Source of the DNA: Nitrososphaerota archaeon
Lineage (GTDB): Archaea; Thermoproteota; Nitrososphaeria; Nitrososphaerales; JAAOZN01
Assembly (NCBI GenBank): GCA_011605775.1
Contig: JAAOZN010000068.1
Span: forward strand, 1 to 35,277
Length of the DNA stretch: 35,277 bases
Direction: 5' to 3'
A program made the translations under genes and the position numbers. Shown piece after piece: positions 1,316 through 19,365 of this stretch. The notes beneath the pieces are model-generated. The model saw only the letters and a program-made list of their open reading frames with translations. It did not search any database and was not told the DNA's origin. How positions within the stretch are numbered: the first letter of the stretch is position 1; each line of letters starts with the position of its first letter.

Positions 1316-2212
1316 ATGTTAAAGGGCGAGTCGTTGCCGTCTAATGTAAACATTGCACCATCAACCACTGGAGAGTTTAAGCATGTTTTACACTTCTACA
1401 GTTCTGGCGTTAACAAGTACTCGATTCAAATACCTTTCCTTGCAACCGTCGGGAGGGGAAGTGCGGTTTATGTGACCGCTGACGATCCGGAGACGGTGAA
1501 AAACGTGTTTAAAATGTTAAACCCTAATCTCATCATAGTACGCCCAGAAAAGCTCGGTAAACTTTTGGCCAGCAAACGTGGCCTAAGGATTGTTGTAGAC
1601 GCTGGCTCGATAAGCCTCAGCGATCCTAGATTGATGGAAAACTATATGCAGACAAGAAAAGGCAGCTACATCGACCATCTTAATAGGGAAGAGTACTTGA
1701 AAGAAAAATGTGGAGAGCACACGATCCTTTGCACATATGATATGAGCAAGCTCAGCCCAGAACTGGTTAAACAGCTTGTGTCCTTCCACGATAAACTCAT
1801 ACTAACGACGAGCGACATGGTCCTTCTAGCAGGAGAATCTCCCGATCGAACTTCTATCTCTGAAGATGCCGTCCAGCAATTAGTTAAGGACGAACTTGAG
1901 AGCATCGTGCTCACCCTCCTCCTTAGGAAACCGTTATGCGGGGTCGAGATTATAAAAGCTGTCTACGACCAGTTTAATGTGCTACTCAGCCCAGGCACAG
2001 TCTACCCGCTATTGCATCTCCTCGAGAAAAGGGGGATGTTGAAATGTGAATACGGTGTGAAGAATAAGACCTATAGGCTTGACGAGGCAGCAAAAGAAAA
2101 AATCTTTAAGATGCTTGAAGAACGCGTTAGGGCAAGCCTGCTCCTTAACAGTTTTCTGCAGACGGTTACGATAAATGTGAGGCAAAAGGAACATTCGGAT
2201 TCTGAAAAATAA
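1316..2212 (+). CDS. MEDS-domain PadR-family transcriptional regulator of the gas vesicle cluster
   Basis: A 298-residue cytoplasmic regulator. Residues 20-165 resemble the MEDS (DcmR sensory) domain: HVLHFYSSGVNKY near the start, GRGSAVYVTADDPETVKN, and TILCTYDMSKLSPELVKQL near its end, a KaiC-like fold without a P-loop. Residues 195-290 are a PadR-like winged helix: LESIVLTLLLRKPLCGVEII, then LSPGTVYPLLHLLEKRGML and KTYRLDEAAKEKI. It sits first in the gas vesicle cluster, where haloarchaea carry gvpD/gvpE, and has its own dyad-TATA promoter, which suggests autoregulation. A paralogue with the same layout lies at the other end of the cluster. The ligand of the MEDS domain is not evident. The role in gas vesicle control is inferred from position and the shared operator. 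Confidence 0.8.
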   Translation: MLKGESLPSNVNIAPSTTGEFKHVLHFYSSGVNKYSIQIPFLATVGRGSAVYVTADDPETVKNVFKMLNPNLIIVRPEKLGKLLASKRGLRIVVDAGSISLSDPRLMENYMQTRKGSYIDHLNREEYLKEKCGEHTILCTYDMSKLSPELVKQLVSFHDKLILTTSDMVLLAGESPDRTSISEDAVQQLVKDELESIVLTLLLRKPLCGVEIIKAVYDQFNVLLSPGTVYPLLHLLEKRGMLKCEYGVKNKTYRLDEAAKEKIFKMLEERVRASLLLNSFLQTVTINVRQKEHSDSEK

Positions 2213-2255: not shown

Positions 2256-3242
2256 ATGGAGTATCCGCCTGATATTGAAGTGATCGGGAAAGGTGGGGGG
2301 AAGGAGCCATTTCGAATAGTGGGGCAGCGGGGGCTCTATTTCTTCATCCGCACTGAAACATTCGATCGACTAAGGGAGATAAACGATGCATATAGGCTCA
2401 CCGGCCAAACAGATCCAAAGCCGTTAGACGCTATAAAGGTAGTTGGAAGAAGGGGGGTCGTCGGACGAAGACCATTTCTTCTGCCGGGGCGTAGCGGAAC
2501 CTACCTCTGTATCCTCGATGAACATCTTAAGCAGCTTGTGAAGATTGCTCAGGCATATAAAATGTGGCTTGAAGCCAAAGAAGAAGAGAAAAAGCTAGAA
2601 AGGATTGTTAAGCCGCCTGAGGAAGGAAGATACGTTTACTGTATTATACCTTGGGACGGTAGCGACCGCAGTCTCAGCTTTGGAGAAATCGGCATAGAAA
2701 ACAGTGGGGAGGTATACACTATTCCCTACGGGGATGTCGCCGCCGTCGTAAGCAACGCACCGTTCAAAGAGTACACACCTAATAAGGAAAACGCCTACGC
2801 TCACATACAAGTCATGACGCTTGTAATGAGAGAACACACGGTTTTGCCGATGGCCTTCGGTATGGTGTTCAAGAACGAGGAAGTACTTCGAAGAGTGCTT
2901 GAGAGAAGCCGCGACGAGTTAAGAAAGGCCTTAAACGAAATCGAAGGCAAGGCGGAGTTCGGCGTCAAGGTGGTTCGGCCAAAGGGGGTTGAGCTCGACG
3001 AAGACGCGTTCGCTTCAGAGATAGGGGAGCTGCGCAAACTGGCAGTCCAAACCAAGCTCGGTAAGCGGTTCAGCAGATCCCTCATTTTGAACGCCTACTA
3101 CCTTATAAGAAAAGAGGATGTGGAGAACTTCCTAAACAAAGCTAGGGCGCTCGAAGAAAAGTTTAAGCAGCTAAAATTTCAGGTCACAGGCCCTTGGCCC
3201 CCGTCCAACTTTGTGAAAATAAAGATTGGGAGGAGAGATTAG
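2256..3242 (+). CDS. gvpF: Gas vesicle protein GvpF/GvpL with a duplicated N-terminal extension
   Basis: Residues 124-328 form a GvpF/GvpL domain: GRYVYCIIPWDG, EVYTIPYGDVAAVVSNAP, HTVLPMAFGMVFKNEEVL and the closing TGPWPPSNFV. GvpF/L proteins are minor assembly factors that bind GvpA. The first 123 residues are not part of the usual family. They contain two similar segments (about 7-47 and 60-102) with the shared pattern I-x-V-x-G, glycines, PF, G-x-x-G-x-Y, I-x-x-E, and L-x-x-I-x-x-AY, followed by a charged helix. The gene lies 43 nt after the regulator and 1 nt before gvpG, in an operon with gvpG and gvpH. A weak TATA-like sequence lies at about 2212-2220. The extension's function is unknown. 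Confidence 0.87.
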   Translation: MEYPPDIEVIGKGGGKEPFRIVGQRGLYFFIRTETFDRLREINDAYRLTGQTDPKPLDAIKVVGRRGVVGRRPFLLPGRSGTYLCILDEHLKQLVKIAQAYKMWLEAKEEEKKLERIVKPPEEGRYVYCIIPWDGSDRSLSFGEIGIENSGEVYTIPYGDVAAVVSNAPFKEYTPNKENAYAHIQVMTLVMREHTVLPMAFGMVFKNEEVLRRVLERSRDELRKALNEIEGKAEFGVKVVRPKGVELDEDAFASEIGELRKLAVQTKLGKRFSRSLILNAYYLIRKEDVENFLNKARALEEKFKQLKFQVTGPWPPSNFVKIKIGRRD

Positions 3243-3243
3243 G

Positions 3244-3537
3244 ATGCCATTTTTGATCGACGACATAATACTTCGGATGGTTGGCATCTCACTACCACCC
3301 TTTGACATGCTCTGGTTGCTTGAGACAATAAGAGACTATGCGATCCAAGAGCTCTACAACCCCGAAAAGATCGGCGACGAGTTAAAGGAGGCCGCGCTCC
3401 TATACGATCTCGGCGAGATCACGAAAGAAGAGTATGAGCGAAGATACGCTGAGCTCACAGAAAAGCTGAAGATAGCCCAGCGTGTCAGAGAATCGAACAT
3501 CATAAAGCGGGTCGACATTCTAAACGTGGGTGTTTAA
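3244..3537 (+). CDS. gvpG: Gas vesicle protein GvpG
   Basis: A 97-residue protein that starts MPFLIDDIILRMVG and continues PPFDMLWLLETIRDYA, then an acidic helical part (DLGEITKEEYERRYAEL) typical of GvpG, a small accessory protein needed for gas vesicle assembly. An in-frame TTG exists at 3226, but the GGAGG at 3230-3234 sits correctly for the ATG at 3244, so I chose that start. The 3' end overlaps gvpH by 8 nt, which points to coupled translation. The order after gvpF is the same as in haloarchaea. Confidence 0.88.
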   Translation: MPFLIDDIILRMVGISLPPFDMLWLLETIRDYAIQELYNPEKIGDELKEAALLYDLGEITKEEYERRYAELTEKLKIAQRVRESNIIKRVDILNVGV

Positions 3538-3988
3538 CGTGGGGTTCGATGAACTGCTAAAAGGACTACGTGAATTCATCAGAGCATTAGATGAGCTGGC
3601 GCAAAAGGAGGTGGTGGAGAAAAGGGGAAAAGGAAAGTTAATGGGAGCCGACGTTACATATTCCTATACCATTAGATATCTTTCACCTGCCAGACCAAGG
3701 GCTCCCCCAGCGGGAGGCGTGGAGAAGCCGTTAGTAGACGTTTTCGACAGGGGTGATCACATCGTCGTCGTCGCGCTCATCCCAAACGTCAAGGAAGAAG
3801 ACTTAAAGTTTAGGATAGAGGGCGATACATTAAAGATCACCTCAAACAAGGCAGGCACCAAGATCCTGAAGGAAGTATCGATACCGAAGGACAGCGAGGT
3901 CGATAAAATCTTAGACGCATCGTTCAAAAACGGCGTCCTCGAAATCAGGCTGAGAAAGAAACTTCGAACTTCGAAAGATAAAGGGTAA
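3530..3988 (+). CDS. gvpH: GvpH-like Hsp20/alpha-crystallin protein
   Basis: A 152-residue protein starting at a GTG that overlaps gvpG. Residues 1-45 form a charged helix (LLKGLREFIRALDELAQKE), and residues 68-145 an alpha-crystallin-type beta-sandwich: PLVDVFDRGDHIVVVALIP, KEEDLKFRIEGDTLKI, and the A-x-x-x-N-G-V-L-E-I signature as ASFKNGVLEIRL. GvpH in haloarchaea is an Hsp20-related factor that accompanies the GvpF/L assembly proteins. The C-terminal codons also carry the dyad operator of the next gene (3963-3976). Position between gvpG and the basic ORF supports the GvpH assignment over a general small heat shock protein. Confidence 0.87.
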   Translation: MFNVGFDELLKGLREFIRALDELAQKEVVEKRGKGKLMGADVTYSYTIRYLSPARPRAPPAGGVEKPLVDVFDRGDHIVVVALIPNVKEEDLKFRIEGDTLKITSNKAGTKILKEVSIPKDSEVDKILDASFKNGVLEIRLRKKLRTSKDKG

Positions 3989-3995
3989 ATAGGCT
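3963..3995 (+). promoter_or_regulatory. Promoter with perfect dyad upstream of the gvpI-slot gene
   Basis: TTCGAACTTCGAAA at 3963-3976 is identical to the site upstream of gvpA. It is centred about 19 bp before an AT-rich TATA-like element, GTAAATAGGC (3985-3994), with predicted initiation near 4012. The operator lies inside the last codons of gvpH, so it marks an internal promoter. Confidence 0.55.
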
Positions 3996-4025
3996 TAAGA
4001 TAAACCGATTTACAGGGATGTGAGA

Positions 4026-4364
4026 ATGGCTGGGAGTGTTGAAGCACCAATCAGCTTCCAGAGAATGAAGGCAGTAAGGAAAGCTGAGCTAGCTAGAGAC
4101 CGAGGCAGAATCAAATTGCTTGCGATAAGGCGTAAGCTGAAGTTTCAGGTCGAAGGAAACGAAGCCAAAATGAGTCGAAGGAAGCAAGAGCAGGCGAAGA
4201 ACCTTAACCCGACCTCAAGGCTTAGAACCCTGGCTGCGCGTGAATGGGCGAAACTGGTCAGGAATCCTTCAAATTGGTCAAGTGTACCACTAAGGCCAAA
4301 GTATTCAAGCGTCAAGCCGAAGCCGAGGGTCTACGGCAGAAGGTTCGAGACCGTGGAAAGTTAG
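4026..4364 (+). CDS. Basic protein in the gvpI position
   Basis: A 112-residue, very basic protein (many Arg and Lys, few acidic residues), for example RKAELARDRGRIKLLAIRRK and SRRKQEQAKNLNP. I see no known domain. Haloarchaeal GvpI is also a short, strongly basic protein encoded between gvpH and gvpJ, so this is a plausible GvpI counterpart by position and composition only. A GTG at 4020 is in frame, but GGG at 4015-4017 is better spaced for the ATG at 4026. It has its own dyad-TATA promoter. The 150 bp after its stop are purine-rich without a further open frame; the next promoter follows at 4514. Confidence 0.55.
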   Translation: MAGSVEAPISFQRMKAVRKAELARDRGRIKLLAIRRKLKFQVEGNEAKMSRRKQEQAKNLNPTSRLRTLAAREWAKLVRNPSNWSSVPLRPKYSSVKPKPRVYGRRFETVES

Positions 4365-4513
4365 AAGGACTGACAAGACAGACGCGAAGAGAATACGAGG
4401 AAGCGGTTTAGAAGACAGCTGAAAGCGTATCAAAGATAGGTGTAGACGTAGGTGCATAAGTCAACGAGCAAAAAGAGACCTAAAGGAACGTTTTAGCAGA
4501 AGAATCCGACTAT

Positions 4514-4568
4514 GTCGAAATTCGAGACAGAATATTTAATAAATGAATTTTAAAACATCGTTAGGAGG
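4514..4568 (+). promoter_or_regulatory. Promoter of the gvpJ-K-L-M operon
   Basis: A dyad variant, GTCGAAATTCGAGA (4514-4527), is centred about 18 bp before the TATA region AATATTTAATAAAT (4531-4544). A strong ribosome binding site GGAGG follows at 4564-4568, 13 nt before the ATG at 4582. It would drive gvpJ through the gvpM-slot gene. Confidence 0.6.
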
Positions 4569-4581
4569 TAGAAGATAAGAG

Positions 4582-4947
4582 ATGGTTGAGAGCCTAGTAC
4601 CGTCAAAGGAAGGCGACCTCGCGCAGGTTGTAGAAAAGATTCTGGAAAAAGGGCTTGTGATAAACGCAGACATCTCTGTGTCGGTTGCAGGCACCGAGCT
4701 ACTTGGCATAAAAATTAGGGCCGCGCTAGCATCCTTCGAGACAGCGGCAAAGTATGGGCTAGAATTCCCATCTGGCACAAACTATCAGGCGAGAGGGTGG
4801 AAGGAGATTGAAATAAGGAAGGCGAAATGTCCTGGCTGCAGAAATGAGGTTCCAGAAGACGAACTGTTTGAGGAAGGCTGCCCCTACTGTGGTTGGGTTA
4901 GCCCGCGAAAGAAGCGCAAGCAAGCGCCAACCATAATCTCAACTTAG
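4582..4947 (+). CDS. gvpJ: GvpJ-like gas vesicle protein with C-terminal zinc ribbon
   Basis: Residues 10-60 are a GvpA/J/M-family core: DLAQVVEKILEKGLVINADI, then VSVAGTELLGIKIRAALAS and FETAAKYGL. In GvpA/J proteins this makes the helix-strand-strand-helix unit. After it come about 20 residues and a C-terminal CPGC (83-86) and CPYC (100-103) pair, spaced as in a zinc ribbon, then a basic tail. A zinc ribbon is not part of standard GvpJ, which is otherwise a minor shell or initiation protein. It leads an operon with gvpK, gvpL and the gvpM-slot gene. The gvpJ name rests on position before gvpK; by sequence it could also be called GvpA-like. Confidence 0.82.
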   Translation: MVESLVPSKEGDLAQVVEKILEKGLVINADISVSVAGTELLGIKIRAALASFETAAKYGLEFPSGTNYQARGWKEIEIRKAKCPGCRNEVPEDELFEEGCPYCGWVSPRKKRKQAPTIIST

Positions 4948-4995
4948 GTTCACTGCCCCTTACACTACAGCGTGTTCGAAATGGAGGGGGAACGC

Positions 4996-5307
4996 ATGCC
5001 CATCAGTATCGATGAGGATAACCTTAAGCAAGGTTTACTAGGTGTAGTCGTCGCCCTAGTTGAAATCATAAAAGAGGTGCTTGAAAGACAAGCTATTAGA
5101 AGAATGGAGAGGGGGGATTTGGAAGACGAGGAAATTGAGAGGCTTAGCATCGCTCTAGCCGATTTGAATGAGGCGCTTGAAAACATAAAGAAGGAGAACG
5201 GGATCGAGGATGCTGTAAAATCTGTACGAGATGGACTTGATGAAGTAGCCGATAAAGTGATAGATAAGTTCTTGAATCCGAGGAGGTGGGCTGAAGAGGT
5301 CAGATAG
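4996..5307 (+). CDS. gvpK: Gas vesicle protein GvpK
   Basis: A 103-residue protein with the GvpK pattern: NLKQGLLGVVVALVEIIKEV, then LERQAIRRMERGDLEDEEIE and LSIALADLNEALENIKKENG. GvpK is a small accessory protein required for gas vesicle formation. A GTG at 4972 is in frame, but the purine run GGAGGGGG at 4983-4990 fits the ATG at 4996. The intergenic space contains the half-site TTCGAAA (4975-4981). It is followed at 2 nt by gvpL. Confidence 0.9.
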   Translation: MPISIDEDNLKQGLLGVVVALVEIIKEVLERQAIRRMERGDLEDEEIERLSIALADLNEALENIKKENGIEDAVKSVRDGLDEVADKVIDKFLNPRRWAEEVR

Positions 5308-5309
5308 AG

Positions 5310-6101
5310 ATGAGTGAGGTGCAAGAAGCTGGCGAAGGCAGATACCTTTACTGCATAATCAACGGTGGAGTGGAGCTTAACTTAGGCAGGATAGGTATAG
5401 AAGATGCCGAAGTCTATACGATCCCTTATAAGGATGTTGCTGTGGTTGTGCACTCTTGCCAAGCTAAGCCCTACGTGTCGAAGGACGAGGAGAAGGTGAA
5501 AAGGTGGATCTTCAACCACAATTATGTAATCGACAAAGCAACAGAACTATTCGGCACAGTCTTGCCCTTCTCCTTTGACGTGATAATCAAAGGAGACGAG
5601 ACTACGGTTAAAGATTGGCTAAGTAGGAATTATGAGAAGTTTAAGGAAGGGCTTGAGAAGGTTAAGGACAAGGCGGAATATACGGTGCAAATCTTCTGCG
5701 ATCAAGATAGGCTCGCGGAGAAGATTTTGAGCGAAGACGAGGAGCTGAGAGCATTGAAGGGAAAAATTGAAAAAATGCCGCAGGCGTCGACCTACCTGCT
5801 TCGGCGGAAATTGGAGCTTAAGGTAAAAGATAAAATTTCAGCCGAAATATCCAAGCTTGCCGAGGAGTTTGCCTCAAAGATAAGGGAGCTGGTCGAGGAA
5901 ATGAAGGTCGAAGAAACTTCGCGAGTACCAGAAAAATATAAGGACAAAAAGTTGGTTGTGACGCTCTCGTGCTTAGTGCATAAGAGCAAGGTTGAAGATC
6001 TTGGCAAGTTACTTGAGGAGATAAACGCTCGCGAAGGATATATCGTTCGCTTCACCGGGCCCTGGGCGCCTTTCAGCTTTGTTACATTTAAGGAGGCGTG
6101 A
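5310..6101 (+). CDS. gvpL: Gas vesicle protein GvpL (GvpF/L family)
   Basis: A 263-residue protein that is a GvpF/L domain throughout: EGRYLYCIINGG at 9-20, AEVYTIPYKDVAVVVHSC, VLPFSFDVIIKGDETTV, a long helical insertion around 130-205, and the closing VRFTGPWAPFSFVTFKEA. It lacks the duplicated N-terminal extension seen in the first GvpF/L of this cluster, so the two are distinct paralogues. Its position after gvpK corresponds to haloarchaeal gvpL. GvpL is an assembly factor that contacts GvpA and other minor Gvp proteins. AGGAGG lies at 6090-6095 inside its last codons, just before the next start region. Confidence 0.9.
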   Translation: MSEVQEAGEGRYLYCIINGGVELNLGRIGIEDAEVYTIPYKDVAVVVHSCQAKPYVSKDEEKVKRWIFNHNYVIDKATELFGTVLPFSFDVIIKGDETTVKDWLSRNYEKFKEGLEKVKDKAEYTVQIFCDQDRLAEKILSEDEELRALKGKIEKMPQASTYLLRRKLELKVKDKISAEISKLAEEFASKIRELVEEMKVEETSRVPEKYKDKKLVVTLSCLVHKSKVEDLGKLLEEINAREGYIVRFTGPWAPFSFVTFKEA

Positions 6102-6103
6102 AG

Positions 6104-6133
6104 ATGCGTATGAAGATTGTGTGGTGCGTCTAA
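6104..6133 (+). other. Nine-codon mini-ORF in front of the gvpM-slot gene
   Basis: The strong AGGAGG at 6090-6095 is spaced for an ATG at 6104, which opens only MRMKIVWCV and a TAA at 6131-6133. The stop is one base before the ATG (6135) of the gvpM-slot gene (TAAGATG), and the two frames differ. It may be a coupling leader peptide, or a frameshifted original N-terminus. Confidence 0.4.
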
Positions 6134-6134
6134 G

Positions 6135-7064
6135 ATGAAGGCTGAGAGAGAAAACGACCTTGTTGATCTACTTGACAAACTTCTGAACCGAGGACTTGTG
6201 TTAAATGCGGACTTGATAATATCTGTGGCAGGCATACCATTGATCGGCGTAAGCCTTAAAGCTGCGATAGCGGGAATAGAAACTATGCTAGAATACGGTA
6301 TGATGGAAGCCTGGGATCAGCGCACAAGAGAATGGTATGCGAGAGAGTATGCGAAGAAGGGGGATGTGCCTCTTAGAGAAGGGGAAGAAGTTTTCCTCAG
6401 ATCGTTTGGATCCTTTCTGGACAGACGATGGATTAACCCAACTTGGCGACCTGGCTTTCTGTACCTCACAAACAAGAGACTCCTCCTATTGAGAAGGGAG
6501 CCGCCTGAAGTGTTGTTGGAAATCCCACTCGACAAGATGGAGGGGCTTGCGGTCAACAAAGAAATGCGCTATGCGAGGGAGAGAGAGGAACTTTACATCC
6601 AGTTCAACTGCGGCGAGATCGTTCGAATCCACGCTCCAAACGTCCTAGAGCTGAAAGATGAAATCGAGAAACTCGTTGGAAAAAGCCTTGAGCACAATAT
6701 TGAGAACTGTCATCCTCCTCTTTCCGAAGACGAAAAACTCCTTAGAGTGGAGAAATTATGGTACCTGTTTCCGGCAATGGGCATATTAGGCGAGACCTGG
6801 AAGCCTGGGCGCCTCTATCTAACAAACAAGAGACTTTTCTGGGTGTATAGGGTAGACGGTGAGAAAATGTTTGAAGTGCCACTTTATAGCATCAGTAATT
6901 TAGCTACAAGCTTCGACGAAAGGAAAGGCAAGGTTCTTACGATAACATTTGATGGCAGAAATGCATCGTTCAGCGGCGACGAACAGAGCGTCGACAGCAT
7001 CATAAGGGCGATAGAGCAAGTTGCCCACACAGCCTGCTCATACAATCCCCAGCAGCCTAAATAG
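6135..7064 (+). CDS. GvpA/J/M-family protein fused to two GRAM/PH-like domains (gvpM position)
   Basis: A 309-residue protein. Residues 8-55 are a GvpA/J/M core (LVDLLDKLLNRGLVLNADLI, then SVAGIPLIGVSLKAAIAGIE). After a linker, two similar domains follow at about 80-182 and 196-296, each with the GRAM/bacterial PH-like pattern: GEEVFLRSFGSF, PGFLYLTNKRLLLLRREP, EIPLDKMEGL, and in the second PGRLYLTNKRLFWVYRV, EVPLYSISNL, VLTITFDGR. GRAM domains usually bind lipids or proteins at membranes. The gene closes the J-K-L operon, where haloarchaea have the short gvpM. An upstream in-frame TTG (6117) exists without a ribosome binding site. The job is unknown; linking a nascent vesicle to membrane or assembly factors is a guess. 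Confidence 0.8.
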   Translation: MKAERENDLVDLLDKLLNRGLVLNADLIISVAGIPLIGVSLKAAIAGIETMLEYGMMEAWDQRTREWYAREYAKKGDVPLREGEEVFLRSFGSFLDRRWINPTWRPGFLYLTNKRLLLLRREPPEVLLEIPLDKMEGLAVNKEMRYAREREELYIQFNCGEIVRIHAPNVLELKDEIEKLVGKSLEHNIENCHPPLSEDEKLLRVEKLWYLFPAMGILGETWKPGRLYLTNKRLFWVYRVDGEKMFEVPLYSISNLATSFDERKGKVLTITFDGRNASFSGDEQSVDSIIRAIEQVAHTACSYNPQQPK

Positions 7065-7129
7065 TCGCTCAAAATTTCTCCGCAGTTTATCAGCTTCTGG
7101 GTCTTCATAGATTTTAAGCCACCTACTCT

Positions 7130-7160
7130 CTCAAATTTCGAAACAAAAAGACTATAAACG
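7130..7160 (+). promoter_or_regulatory. Promoter of gvpNO with dyad operator
   Basis: A dyad variant, CTCAAATTTCGAAA (7130-7143), is centred about 19 bp upstream of the TATA element ACTATAAAC (7151-7159). Initiation is predicted near 7181, which excludes the ATG at 7173 and supports the ATG at 7188 as the gvpN start. Confidence 0.6.
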
Positions 7161-7187
7161 TGATGGAAGGTTATGGGAGCGATTAAT

Positions 7188-8252
7188 ATGAGAGAATGGA
7201 GGAGGTTGCACCCTAGAATTGTGAGGGGGGCGCGTATTCATACGACTTTAGAGGAGAAGAAGGATATGGCAAAAGATCTTGGAAAAGAGTCTGCAGAGTT
7301 TCTGATGCGAACGGTCGAAAGGCTTGAAGGAGAAACATTTCAAATACAAAAATCCGGGCTGGTCAATACAAAATACTTGTTGCCAAACATTGAAAATTAC
7401 ATAGAAACAGAGGAGGTGAAGAAGATCAAGGAGAAAGTGAAGCTTTGGCTTAACGCAGGCTACCCTGTTCATATCGTTGGCCCCACAGGCTGCGGGAAGT
7501 CGACACTCGCGCTACGTGTAGCAGAAGAGCTCGGCAGACCCATAGTATGGGTGAACGGTGACGAGACGATGACCACAGCAGATTTGGTTGGAGGCTACTC
7601 TGAAGTTGAGGCTGAAAGTTTGAGGGATAGATTCATTCACACGGTTCTCAAGACCAGAGACGTTATGCGGGCAGGCTGGGTGGACAACCCCCTGACGGTT
7701 GCGTGTAAGTATGGTTACACGTTCATCTACAACGATTTTTCCAGAGCTAGGCCTGAAGCAAACAACATCTTGCTTCCGGTCTTTCAGGAGGGCGTACTTG
7801 AGCTCCCAAAGAGATTCGGAGAAGAACGCTACATCAAAGTCAACCCCAACTTCAGAGCGATTCTAACAAGCAACTCCGTCGACTATGTAGGAGTATTTCG
7901 ACCACAGAATGCCCTACTTGACCGAATGGTCGGCATCTACATGGACTTTTACGACTTCTACACCGAGGTTGAGATCGTTAAAGCGCACTCCGGAATACCG
8001 CAACGTGAGGCGGAAGCAATAGTTGAAGCTATCCGCAGGCTAAGGGAAAAGCTGCCTGATGCAGAAAAGCCGGGAACACGGGCCTGCATAATGATCGCAA
8101 AAAGGTTTGCGATGAGCGGCGGAAAACTTGAAGAACTCCTCGAAGAACTATGCTTAGACATTTTAGCAACTAAAAGTAGAGGCCCATCGGACTGGGCTGC
8201 AAAACAGAAGCTCGTCAAAGACATCTTAGCAACCAAAGGTGGTAAAGGATGA
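7188..8252 (+). CDS. gvpN: Gas vesicle AAA+ ATPase GvpN
   Basis: A 354-residue MoxR-type AAA+ ATPase. Walker A is GPTGCGKST (98-106); the Walker B region is FIYNDFSRARPEANN, and a sensor-like segment is FRAILTSNSVDYVG with DRMVGIYMDF after it. GvpN is a known component of gas vesicle clusters that hydrolyses ATP and promotes vesicle enlargement. The first 70 residues are a charged extension ahead of the ATPase. An in-frame ATG at 7173 lies upstream of the predicted transcription start, so 7188 is preferred. The stop overlaps the gvpO start (ATGA at 8249). It has its own dyad-controlled promoter. Confidence 0.92.
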   Translation: MREWRRLHPRIVRGARIHTTLEEKKDMAKDLGKESAEFLMRTVERLEGETFQIQKSGLVNTKYLLPNIENYIETEEVKKIKEKVKLWLNAGYPVHIVGPTGCGKSTLALRVAEELGRPIVWVNGDETMTTADLVGGYSEVEAESLRDRFIHTVLKTRDVMRAGWVDNPLTVACKYGYTFIYNDFSRARPEANNILLPVFQEGVLELPKRFGEERYIKVNPNFRAILTSNSVDYVGVFRPQNALLDRMVGIYMDFYDFYTEVEIVKAHSGIPQREAEAIVEAIRRLREKLPDAEKPGTRACIMIAKRFAMSGGKLEELLEELCLDILATKSRGPSDWAAKQKLVKDILATKGGKG

Positions 8253-8533
8253 ATGAGGTAGAAATCCTAGAGATTGGCGAAAAATGCTGCGCCCAAATGG
8301 CAAGGCTATTAAATAAGAAGGTAGAAAGTATCGTGAGCCTTACAAAAGAGGAGAAAGGGTGGAAAGCGCTTATTGAGGTTTTAGAAAGGAAGGCAGTGCC
8401 TGACACGCACGACCTACTCGGAAGGTACGAGGTGACAATGGACCCGAACGGAAGGGTCTTAAAATACAGTCAAACACTCATAAGATACAGATCCGATCGT
8501 CTCGGAATAGAATTCAGAGAAGCAAAAGAATAG
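8249..8533 (+). CDS. gvpO: Gas vesicle protein GvpO
   Basis: A 94-residue GvpO: GEKCCAQMARLLNKKVESIV followed by the characteristic GWKALIEVLERKAVPDT and DLLGRYEVTMDPNGRVLKY. GvpO is a small cytoplasmic protein always found with gas vesicle genes; it has been linked to regulation or stability of gvp transcripts. It overlaps gvpN by 4 nt, so the two are co-translated, as in the haloarchaeal gvpACNO unit. Downstream (8534-8669) lies a short convergent gap with no gene. Confidence 0.9.
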   Translation: MNEVEILEIGEKCCAQMARLLNKKVESIVSLTKEEKGWKALIEVLERKAVPDTHDLLGRYEVTMDPNGRVLKYSQTLIRYRSDRLGIEFREAKE

Positions 8534-8844: not shown

Positions 8845-9087
8845 CTAAGCCGTAGGTGCTGCTGGTGCTGGCGCTGGTGGTGCGACCGCTGCAGCCTCTA
8901 TTTTCGTTATCTCTTCAGCGTAGTGTATGAACGTGTCAACTGAGGCTACAACTACTCTAGCTTCAATCGTCAAAATCTCGATGCCGACTAGTGAGACACG
9001 TACCCACGCGTCGATGACTATGCCCCTGTCCAGTATCCTGTCTAGTACTTCAGCCAAATTACTTGCCGAGGGTGTTACGTTTACCAT
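8845..9087 (-). CDS. gvpA: Major gas vesicle shell protein GvpA
   Basis: An 80-residue Gvp[21 protein letters not shown], then [19 protein letters not shown] and [11 protein letters not shown] match the helix-strand-strand-helix unit that polymerises into the gas vesicle wall. The tail after residue 63 is rich in Ala and Pro ([12 protein letters not shown]), as in many GvpA proteins. It is transcribed opposite to gvpN-O from a dyad-TATA promoter with a leader of about 32 nt, and leads the 54-residue gene downstream. It is the only standard GvpA here; the other two family members carry extra domains. Confidence 0.95.
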
Positions 9088-9100
9088 CTTGCATCACTCG

Positions 9101-9173
9101 TTTCGAACGAAAGAGTTCTCTTAAAATGTTTTCTTTTCCAATCTAATATCAGGGAAAGTTTCGAACTTCGAAA
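9101..9173 (-). promoter_or_regulatory. gvpA promoter with perfect dyad
   Basis: On the minus strand, the perfect dyad (9160-9173; TTTCGAAGTTCGAA when read in the direction of gvpA) is centred about 20 bp upstream of the TATA element GATATTAGAT (9141-9150). Initiation is predicted near 9119. A second palindromic element, TTTCGTTCGAAA (9103-9114), lies in the leader and could be a further binding site for the regulator. Confidence 0.65.
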
Positions 9174-9190
9174 ATGATCCAAATACGAGG

Positions 9191-10173
9191 TTAAAAGTTG
9201 ACCACCTTTTGAAGCGAGTTCGCAATGTATTTTTGGGCCGCTATTAGATGTCTTATTTTATCTTTCGCTTCTTCTTTTCCCGCTTCTGTCAGCGCATAAA
9301 CTTTTGAACGCGGATTTTTGGATTCCACTATTTTGAGGAGACCGCGTTTTTGCATGGCGTACAGCATTGGGTAAACGGTTCCTTGGCTGAGAAACGTATA
9401 GTATTCTTGATAGATTCTTCGGATAAGTTCGTAGCCGCAAAGAGGAGCTTTTAGCAGCAAGGATAAAATGATTACTTCAAGGTGTTTTTTTACGAAAATT
9501 TCTAGACTCTCCCGAGAAACTGTATCGACAACATCTAAATCTGGCTTCCAAAGGGATCGTAGACTGAGCCCTATGATCGCCTGCTCGGTTTTTGTGGAGA
9601 GAATAACGTTCCTGTAGAGTTCCAGTAAAGCCTCCAACAAATTGCTAGGCAAAGTATCGATCTCAAAAGCGATTAGCGACTTGATAGTAAAAGGCATTTT
9701 TTCACCCATTCTTATGCGAACCTCCCTTAGACAATCAACAAGCTCTTTAGTGACGGAAGAAGTAACCGAGCCCCCAAAGTCCATTACAGCCCTCAAACCG
9801 GAATAACTTTTTGGAACAAGGTTACGCAGTTCTTGGAGTTCAGCTTTTAAATTGCTTATCTCATGTGATGTGACCGCCCCCCCCGGACCGCGATTGGAAA
9901 AGCATACAATCTACGCGATTCAATATCTTCTCTAAACTCTCTCTCAAAACGAAATCTGTTTGTCTCATCATTATTATATACAAAGAGGCATAGCTCACCG
10001 GATTCAAGACCGAGGCGCAGGAAAGAAGATAGCATCTGCAAGACTTGCACACCATATTCGTATAGGAGAAGCAGGTGCTCAAATTTACAGGGAAAAGCAA
10101 GAACCTTACGGGAACAAGGAAGAAAAAGCCACTCCCTTCTCCTTTTCACCCTAATATTTTGGTCCATTCTCAT
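9191..10173 (-). pseudogene. Second MEDS-PadR regulator, split by a frameshift at a G8 tract
   Basis: Two frames on the minus strand make one MEDS-PadR protein. The first (10173 to 9856) has the start of a MEDS domain: EHLLLLYEYGVQVLQMLSSF, GLESGELCLFVYNNDET, YAFPIAVRGG. The second, open from before 9877 to 9191, carries the rest and a PadR winged helix: LEVIILSLLLKAPLCGYELI, LSQGTVYPMLYAMQKRGLL, SKVYALTEAGKEEA. They switch at eight G (plus-strand C run 9877-9884). Nine G would join them exactly as AVRGG-AVTSHEISN, so a one-base change restores about 327 residues. It is the paralogue of the regulator at 1316-2212 and lies upstream of gvpA. It could be a phase-variable gene in the off state, a pseudogene or an assembly error. 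The downstream frame also has a possible TTG start at 9796. Confidence 0.7.
9877..9884. repeat. Homopolymer C8 (G8 on the coding strand) at the regulator frameshift
   Basis: Eight consecutive C on the plus strand lie exactly where the two frames of the minus-strand regulator meet. Gain of one base or loss of two restores a single frame. Runs of this kind change length by slipped-strand mispairing in phase-variable genes. Confidence 0.75.
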
Positions 10174-10895: not shown

Positions 10896-11426
10896 CTAAC
10901 TACTCTTCATCTCAACCTCGAACACGCACTTCTCATCTCCCTTCGATAAGCACGAGACCTCCTCGACCGAAACCTCTTTAGCGTAGAGTGTGGTTAGGAA
11001 GCCCTTAAGGAAACCTTTTGTGAAGAAGCAGGATGGCTTATCTGATCTGAAAACCTTAGCCTCGAACACACCCTCGCAAACAAGCCTACCTGAGCAACGC
11101 TCAGCATCAAACGAATCTAGGCTCATCTTGAACCAACCCTCCCTCAACTTATACTCAGAAAAGAACCTTAAGACAACAATCTTATCCCCGAACTCCTTCA
11201 TAAGCCTCTCACAAGACCTGGCGCCACAAGCTAAGCCGACCTCATAGAGTATGACGCCCCCGCCTGAACCAAAGCGCTCGAATAAAGCAGACTTAAAGTC
11301 AGCAAAAGTCACACACCTAAAGATGAACGCATCACCACTCCTAAGCAAAGTATAGGGCGCAGCTGACTCCTCAGAAGAATCCGTAAACCGCCCCCCCCCC
11401 CTTTTTCGATAAACACGCAACTTCAT
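10896..11426 (-). CDS. V4R-domain sensor protein with an in-frame G11 tract
   Basis: A 176-residue protein. Residues 25-175 match a V4R (4-vinyl reductase) domain: EVGLACGARSCERLMKEFG in the middle and FFTKGFLKGFLTTLYAKEVS with the closing CLSKGDEKCVFEVE, a C-x5-D-x2-C ending typical of V4R. These small-molecule-binding domains are often sensors linked to regulators. The gene stands alone, without a DNA-binding domain. Codons 8-12 contain eleven consecutive G (plus 11391-11401, protein RKRGGGRF), in frame in this sequence, so any length change not divisible by three would silence it. A TTG lies one codon upstream; the ATG is preferred. A TTAATTAAA TATA-like element is about 25 nt upstream. 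Confidence 0.75.
   Translation of the reverse strand: MKLRVYRKRGGGRFTDSSEESAAPYTLLRSGDAFIFRCVTFADFKSALFERFGSGGGVILYEVGLACGARSCERLMKEFGDKIVVLRFFSEYKLREGWFKMSLDSFDAERCSGRLVCEGVFEAKVFRSDKPSCFFTKGFLKGFLTTLYAKEVSVEEVSCLSKGDEKCVFEVEMKSS
11391..11401. repeat. Homopolymer C11 (G11 on the coding strand) in the V4R gene
   Basis: Eleven consecutive C on the plus strand, preceded on the coding strand by five A, fall within codons 8-12 of the V4R gene. This is the longest homopolymer in the window and a strong candidate for slippage. Confidence 0.8.
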
Positions 11427-11470
11427 CAAAGAAAAATTATCACCCAGCTTTTAATTAAAGCTTACTCATC

Positions 11471-11884: not shown

Positions 11885-12256
11885 CTAGGTAATCTCTTCA
11901 TAGTTGGATATGAACTTCCTATACCACTCAAACTCCTCCAAAGTTACCAGATGCAGCTCAAAAGGGTTAGGCGTGCCAAAGACCTGCCTAGCCAAATCGT
12001 ACGTCTTAAGCCTCTTCTCAAGTTCTTTAAATTCGTCACATATAACCAGCACGTCAACATCGCTTAGTGGCCCGCTTCTACCCTCAGCAACACTTCCGAA
12101 GACAAGAACTCTAACGCGGCTTTTAAGGTGGTGTGCGAGCTCAGATTTGAACCGTCGGAGCGACTCTTGATACCTACTTCTCATCGCAGCTAATTTAAGA
12201 CTCCTCTTAACCACACGCTTGAACGCTTCACTCAAACTCAGATAACCTCTTGACAT
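11885..12256 (-). CDS. MNT-type nucleotidyltransferase antitoxin
   Basis: A 123-residue minimal nucleotidyltransferase with the full active-site signature: VLVFGSVAEGRSGPLSDVDV, with G54-S55 and D66-x-D68 (GSX10DXD). Such proteins act as antitoxins to HEPN-domain partners, in studied cases by AMPylating the toxin. The gene overlaps the 3' end of the upstream HEPN gene by 29 bp, so they form a coupled toxin-antitoxin pair. The N-terminal 45 residues are a basic helical extension. Confidence 0.85.
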   Translation of the reverse strand: MSRGYLSLSEAFKRVVKRSLKLAAMRSRYQESLRRFKSELAHHLKSRVRVLVFGSVAEGRSGPLSDVDVLVICDEFKELEKRLKTYDLARQVFGTPNPFELHLVTLEEFEWYRKFISNYEEIT

Positions 12257-12584
12257 AATCCTCTGCGAAACGTAGTATGGTCATAGCGGTTTCTTTTGAA
12301 TAATCCTTCGGTAAGTACCTTGAAGTTATGTATGCCTCCTCTAATAGATCTAAGATCATATTCGGCAGCTCCGGCGGCTCAGCACCTATCTCTCTAAGCT
12401 CAGATAGCAGTACCTCGATGCTATGTGTTTTAGGGTATTCGCCTACTCGTTTAGCCAACAGATACTTCAAGTAGAACTGTATCGCTTGTTCGCAATTAAA
12501 GAGTGTTAAGTTATACAAGCCTAATTCAAACGCCTTCCCCGCTAGGGTAAGCATCTCAGATGCCCTCTTCTTAAGGAACTCCAA
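12228..12584 (-). CDS. HEPN-domain protein (putative toxin)
   Basis: A 118-residue HEPN protein: LKKRASEMLTLAGKAFELGL, NLTLFNCEQAIQFYLKYLLA and the PKTHSIEVLLSELREIG segment with the family His. HEPN proteins paired with MNT partners are usually RNases or targets of AMPylation. The Rx4-6H motif of HepT is not clear here, so this belongs to the general HEPN family and enzymatic activity is uncertain. It is the first gene of the pair; a TTAAATACT TATA-like element lies upstream on the minus strand near 12612-12620. Confidence 0.8.
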   Translation of the reverse strand: MEFLKKRASEMLTLAGKAFELGLYNLTLFNCEQAIQFYLKYLLAKRVGEYPKTHSIEVLLSELREIGAEPPELPNMILDLLEEAYITSRYLPKDYSKETAMTILRFAEDYVKRLSEFE

Positions 12585-19136: not shown

Positions 19137-19248
19137 CAGCTGGATCGTTGCGTCTCATCCATATATAAGGATTAAGCAAGCTGGCGCCGCGCCATTATGC
19201 TCCTCTTCATCCTGTCACCGATGCGATAGGTTTAGCTAGAAATATTGG

Positions 19249-19365
19249 TGCGGGGGGTGGGATTTGAACCCACGAACCCCTACGGGACAGGAGCTCTGCG
19301 CGCGGCTCCTCAGTTTCGCAGCCACTTGGGCACCTGCGCCTTTGACCTGGCTTGGCAACCCCCGC
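19249..19365 (-). tRNA. tRNA-Leu, probably anticodon GAG, with two introns
   Basis: The minus strand starts GCGGGGGTTGCCAAGCC and ends GTGGGTTCAAATCCCAC then CCCCCGCA, giving paired acceptor and T arms and a class II variable arm (TCCCGTAGGGGTTC). The gene is 117 nt, about 32 nt longer than a mature tRNA-Leu. The anticodon-stem side CAGG is followed by inserted sequence, then CTGAGG, more inserted sequence, and TCCTG. Removing about 18 nt at position 30/31 and about 14 nt at 37/38 gives stem CAGGA/TCCTG and loop CTGAGGC with anticodon GAG, and an 85-nt tRNA. The exact intron borders are inferred. CCA is not encoded. A GATATTATTA TATA-like element lies about 28-37 nt upstream. Confidence 0.85.

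Follow-up and report, generated by a model that had tools for sequence, protein, structure and literature searches.

The window, as the whole 35,277-nucleotide stretch of Nitrososphaerota DNA analysed here is called, contains a gas-vesicle cluster and two genes for MEDS-PadR regulators (Table 1). Its source falls in one phylum with a Bathyarchaeia assembly (G400, locus L208), from which membership of Thermoproteota is inferred. Orthologs of the first, reg1, are found in the gas-vesicle clusters of many archaea. The second, reg2, is located immediately 5′ of gvpA, in the same orientation, and is divided between two reading frames. Both reg1 and gvpN have the palindrome TTTCGAAA near their TATA-like boxes, and the inverted repeats at 9101 and 9159 in the gvpA promoter region are related to it. 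All of these are candidate operators of the cluster without binding data, and the statistics behind them are modest (11 heptamers versus 6.0 expected). No match was obtained for the window in Rfam. An ORF at 228-1163, where the gas-vesicle region starts, resembles a DNA methylase remnant or fusion (it includes LLDPACGSGTFL). A short repeat at 19244-19365 (about 41 and 32 bases, 98-100% identical) is dispersed in the source genome and in both genus mates of the source organism.

Table 1. Features of the window discussed in the text, with strand where assigned.
Feature	Position	Strand	Remarks
Palindrome TTTCGAAA	1265..1272		By TATA-like box of reg1; candidate operator
reg1, first MEDS-PadR regulator	1316..2212	+	Intact, no tract
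Gas-vesicle cluster	2256..8533	+	
GvpF/L	2256-3242, 5310-6101	+	
GvpJ/M-type shell-protein homologs	4582-4947, 6117-7064	+	
Palindrome TTTCGAAA	7136..7143		By TATA-like box of gvpN; candidate operator
GvpN	7173-8252	+	
GvpO	8249-8533	+	
gvpA, main gas-vesicle shell protein	8845..9087	-	PF00741; directly downstream of reg2
Inverted repeats TTTCGAACGAAA (9101) and TTTCGAACTTCGAAA (9159)	9101..9173		gvpA promoter region, between reg2 and gvpA; candidate operators
reg2 C-terminal frame	9191..9877	-	Remaining MEDS and PadR winged-helix DNA-binding domain (PF03551, E 1e-13)
reg2 N-terminal frame	9856..10173	-	First half of MEDS (RecA/KaiC-like) sensory domain, 105 aa
G8 tract, reg2 frame break	9877..9884	-	OFF; ON = G6, G9 or G12
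V4R-domain sensor protein gene	10896..11429	-	Probable leaderless ATG at 11426
G11 tract, V4R codons 9-13	11391..11401	-	In frame (ON)

Anatomy of reg2 and its G8 tract

The tract appears as eight C on the plus strand. Starting at 10173, the N-terminal frame passes through it and ends in RLYAFPIAVRGGRSHHMR before a stop at codon 106, seven codons beyond the run of G. From the tract down to 9191 the C-terminal frame has no internal stop, reading from AVTSHEISNLKAELQ to a final VVNF and stop. An earlier, sequence-only reading of this DNA had claimed that the two frames meet exactly at the eight G, and that a ninth G would restore a single protein. The former claim was borne out by frame translation and the latter by an in silico series of tract lengths, in which G6, G9 and G12 alone gave one open reg2 protein (326-328 aa) and G5, G7, G8, G10 and G11 all gave a stop at codon 104-107. 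One-base changes in length were thereby found, in silico, to toggle reg2 between a full-length and a truncated product.

The PadR winged helix (PF03551) scores 51 bits, above the curated cut-off of 27. The MEDS domain (PF14417) of the joined protein is a weak match, with 19.6 bits against a curated cut-off of 29.8, and joining the halves did not raise its score appreciably (from 19.4 bits). Since this score stays flat, Pfam alone is no proof of the junction, and it is the homologs that supply the proof; one of them, L225, is above the MEDS cut-off with 35.2 bits. An AlphaFold2 model of another homolog, L224 (mean pLDDT 77), displays a sensor fold of RecA/KaiC type, with a PadR domain after it. 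When placed on this model, the G tract of the window is predicted to fall in the loop that links strand 82-87 to helix 92-112.

Homopolymers are a classic site of sequencing and assembly error, and the assembly is fragmented (107 contigs). However, the suggestion that the real run is nine G and that reg2 is intact is very improbable: window ORFs of 1036, 966, 903 and 582 aa are unbroken and the V4R gene keeps its frame through G11, indicating that indel errors are rare. Even a G9 in reg2 would fit the recurrence of such tracts in other genomes.

Intact homologs and recurrent tracts in other archaea

Used by itself as query against 84,980 species, the joined reg2 gave no match, and homologs were collected with an alignment of MEDS-PadR proteins as query, which yielded 39 loci. 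All compared sequences are metagenome assemblies. Intact full-length reg2 homologs were observed to be continuous through the junction, with 30-39% identity: 39% over 300 aa for L224 and 37% for L227 (both Hadesarchaea/Hadarchaeum), 32% and 31% for L225 and L226 (Euryarchaeota), and 30% for L211 (Aenigmatarchaeota). The gene order at L211, gvpA(-)-reg2(-)/gvpN(+)-gvpO-reg1-gvpF, is that of the window. Because intact homologs align across the junction, one of them within the same gene order, comparison of the sequences suggests that the intact form of reg2 is probably ancestral and the split form derived. Among viral contigs, a search for the tract regions found no match, and one with A2 found two weak matches only.

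A derived split could mean that reg2 is recently dead, a single slippage indel at a chance G8 or G9 run having been followed by drift. One homopolymer indel is the commonest route to gene loss. In addition, gas-vesicle genes are absent from the two genus mates, and the lack of the whole cluster in same-genus relatives indicates that the region is labile. Death of the gene is possible for the window copy taken alone, but it is unlikely. Apart from the tract, reg2 contains no stops or indels over its 327 codons, the adjoining gvpA, gvpN and reg1 are intact, and similar tracts in the reg2 of three other genomes are left unexplained by drift in a single lineage.

These three genomes come from a sample of 327 genomes of another archaeal phylum that were searched for gas-vesicle MEDS-PadR pairs. 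A reg1/reg2 pair was detected in 3 of the 327, namely the genomes of L232 (Woesearchaeota UBA10216), L298 (G779) and L299 (G796), and reg2 contains a tract in all three. In the gvpA-linked reg2 of L232, C15 followed by NN is located at the frame change. In L298, the first codons contain G8, and a later frame break coincides with G10; there, G9 or G12 joins the frames. In L299, G10 separates the gene body, which also has its own ATG, from an upstream ATG; G8 or G11 joins the two. Overall, reg2 is linked to gvpA in six cases (the window, L211, L232, L233, L298 and L299), and four of these carry a tract, with none in L211 and L233. Four kinds of position are represented: one is N-terminal, and the three mid-gene tracts are predicted from the L224 model to occupy separate loops (51-54, 88-91 and 125-128). 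Three further genomes (L327-L329) have reg1 and show no MEDS-type reg2; one has a short PadR gene by gvpA, and two contigs are incomplete.

By comparison, none of 25 reg1 genes (two partial), often from the same clusters, has a G/C run of at least 7 within 200 bases. The difference between 4/6 for reg2 and 0/25 for reg1 gives a Fisher p of about 5e-4 (4.2e-4 when computed with 26 reg1). Taking the top per-gene chance of 1.2%, the probability of 4/6 is about 3e-7. The background of G/C runs of at least 8 was zero in 200 kb and 135 kb of the L298 and L299 genomes, respectively, and about 10 per Mb in the L232 genome (G724). A chance origin of the reg2 tracts is hard to hold, with the reservation that these figures are post hoc and the numbers small.

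Two other features of the runs were recorded. The G runs at window positions 9877 and 11391, at 6307 and 6460 of L298 and at 6719 of L299 are followed by CG and mostly then by TT/TTA, which may be chance. In another archaeal gas-vesicle cluster, a histidine-kinase gene has a G14 run at its 3′ end (position 9795 of L327, genome G1083), and a response regulator gene follows closely.

The recurrent tracts also bear on whether the frame is bridged during expression without DNA change, by -1 ribosomal frameshifting or RNA-polymerase slippage, to give both truncated and full-length protein. A -1 slip at G8 would yield an identical fused protein. For archaea, -1 frameshifting at a run has been reported once, in the Saccharolobus solfataricus gene fucA (PMC8211752); bacteria are known to show transcript slippage at such runs (PMC3711429). 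However, a programmed site is normally conserved, whereas the tracts of the relatives differ in place and in the shift needed, one of them being C15, and L299 and L298 each have a tract at the gene's 5′ end, where contingency genes often have theirs. Bridging of this kind cannot be excluded, but it is considered somewhat less likely again than the loss of the gene.

Long G runs in the source genome and the V4R gene

Pattern searches of the source genome (1,623,569 bases) found only three G/C runs of at least 8, each sense-oriented relative to a signalling or regulatory gene; runs of exactly seven G number 19. Two of the three are those in the window, within 1.5 kb of each other, and the chance of two of three being so close is about 0.6%. 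Dinucleotide shuffles of the window alone predict 0.78 runs, against three in the whole genome. Real runs are few relative to shuffles, and long G runs are therefore depleted; a global enrichment was considered and rejected, the runs being rarer than predicted by shuffling. Relatives have 0-9 long G runs per genome, and so their presence is not unusual as such.

The third run, a G9 on the minus strand of contig C87 (14832-14840; L056 4833-4841), falls within a stretch ahead of a Ras-like GTPase that is either an in-frame N-terminal extension or a leader. The extension with G9 is missing from the homolog of a genus mate and from a paralog on contig C23, where the paralog adjoins a V4R gene.

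The V4R gene next to reg2 had also been said to carry a G11 run, and eleven C are indeed found on the plus strand at 11391-11401. Any change in length that is not a multiple of three would truncate the product; in silico, G9, G10, G12 and G13 led to truncation at 17-39 aa. A paralog on contig C32, with 91% DNA identity, lacks a net 36 nt segment that includes G11, and retains the promoter (AAGCYTTAATTARAAGC) and an ATG about 25 bases downstream. The dN/dS between the two copies is about 0.1, a sign of purifying selection, and thus the G11-bearing copy is still functional or lost its function only recently. It is probably a second tract switch, at present ON. V4R genes form a multi-copy family in this genome, with the 91% paralog at C32:558-1049, a 3′ remnant at C87:5012-5151 and a 35% paralog at C23:5321-5746. 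A HEPN/nucleotidyltransferase gene pair at 11885-12584 of the window adjoins the V4R gene.

Proposed switch and known systems

We propose, with a probability of about 0.68, that reg2 is a slipped-strand contingency locus for gas-vesicle control, its G homopolymer falling in a sensor-domain loop. The anatomy of reg2, its frames, the intact homologs and the recurrent tracts elsewhere are directly observed; reversible length change, the regulatory target and the effect on buoyancy are inferred. The sequence-only reading had already suggested phase variation, and this suggestion is supported by homologs that are intact across the junction and by tracts in three other archaeal genomes, while remaining an inference. 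In the proposed mechanism, slippage of DNA polymerase at the tract would add or remove one G. With G8, reg2 would lack its DNA-binding domain, and with G9 (or G6 or G12) the full regulator would be made. In the OFF state, without the PadR domain, the gvp promoters would lose a regulator. A population would then be a mixture of reg2+ and reg2- cells, differing in gvpA/gvpN expression, probably via the TTTCGAAA sites. PadR proteins are usually repressors, and for this reason OFF may mean more gas vesicles, although the sign is a guess. Length heterogeneity has not been demonstrated for any of the four tract genes, and G8 is rather short for a contingency tract.

With somewhat less assurance, we lean toward the wider view that at least two archaeal phyla have independently made the gvpA-adjacent reg2 into a slipped-strand contingency gene, that buoyancy is phase-variable and bet-hedged in uncultured archaea, and that tract switching in the source genome extends to a few signalling genes (reg2, the V4R sensor and perhaps the Ras-like GTPase). 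Homopolymer phase variation has been described almost wholly in host-associated bacteria. If the proposal is true, a buoyancy regulator of free-living archaea that repeatedly gains tracts would mean that bet-hedging through DNA slippage does not depend on a host. Such a regulator would also account for the broken appearance of reg2 in assemblies, and would provide a directly testable system. A 2025 review defers the distribution of homopolymer phase variation in archaea to future work (PMC11868660), and no tract switch of archaeal gas vesicles was found in the open literature, subscription literature being outside the scope of the search.

How does reg2 compare with known systems? Contingency loci with poly-G or poly-C tracts are well known in bacteria such as Campylobacter and Neisseria (PMC6321876, PMC3786947, PMC11868660, PMC2831843). 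Like reg2, they have a long G/C tract in the coding sequence, often 5′, and are ON at every third length; their tracts are likewise rare, concentrated in particular genes and recurrent in orthologs. However, they mostly encode surface proteins, LPS enzymes and methylases of host-associated bacteria, whereas reg2 encodes an archaeal gas-vesicle transcription factor, in which length variation is so far unobserved. Among MEDS-PadR regulators (PF14417 and PF03551, with a DcmR-type sensory domain), reg2 shares the domain order, the RecA/KaiC-like sensor fold and the PadR winged helix. It differs in belonging to a subgroup that adjoins gvpA and is distinct from reg1, the sole one in which tracts were found.

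Two archaeal cases are also relevant. Like reg2, fucA is an archaeal gene split at a run and one base off its full-length homologs, but its -1 programmed frameshift involves an A-run with a conserved site and stimulators, and is translational rather than genetic, unlike the switch proposed for reg2. Halobacterium salinarum undergoes high-frequency gas-vesicle variation by insertion sequences at rates up to 1e-2 (cited in PMC6202454). In its populations, gas vesicles are thus switched through a change in the DNA, as is proposed for reg2 in another archaeon. The means differ: transposition of insertion sequences inactivates gvp genes in H. salinarum, whereas the change proposed for reg2 is a single nucleotide in the tract of a regulator, and would be easily reversible.
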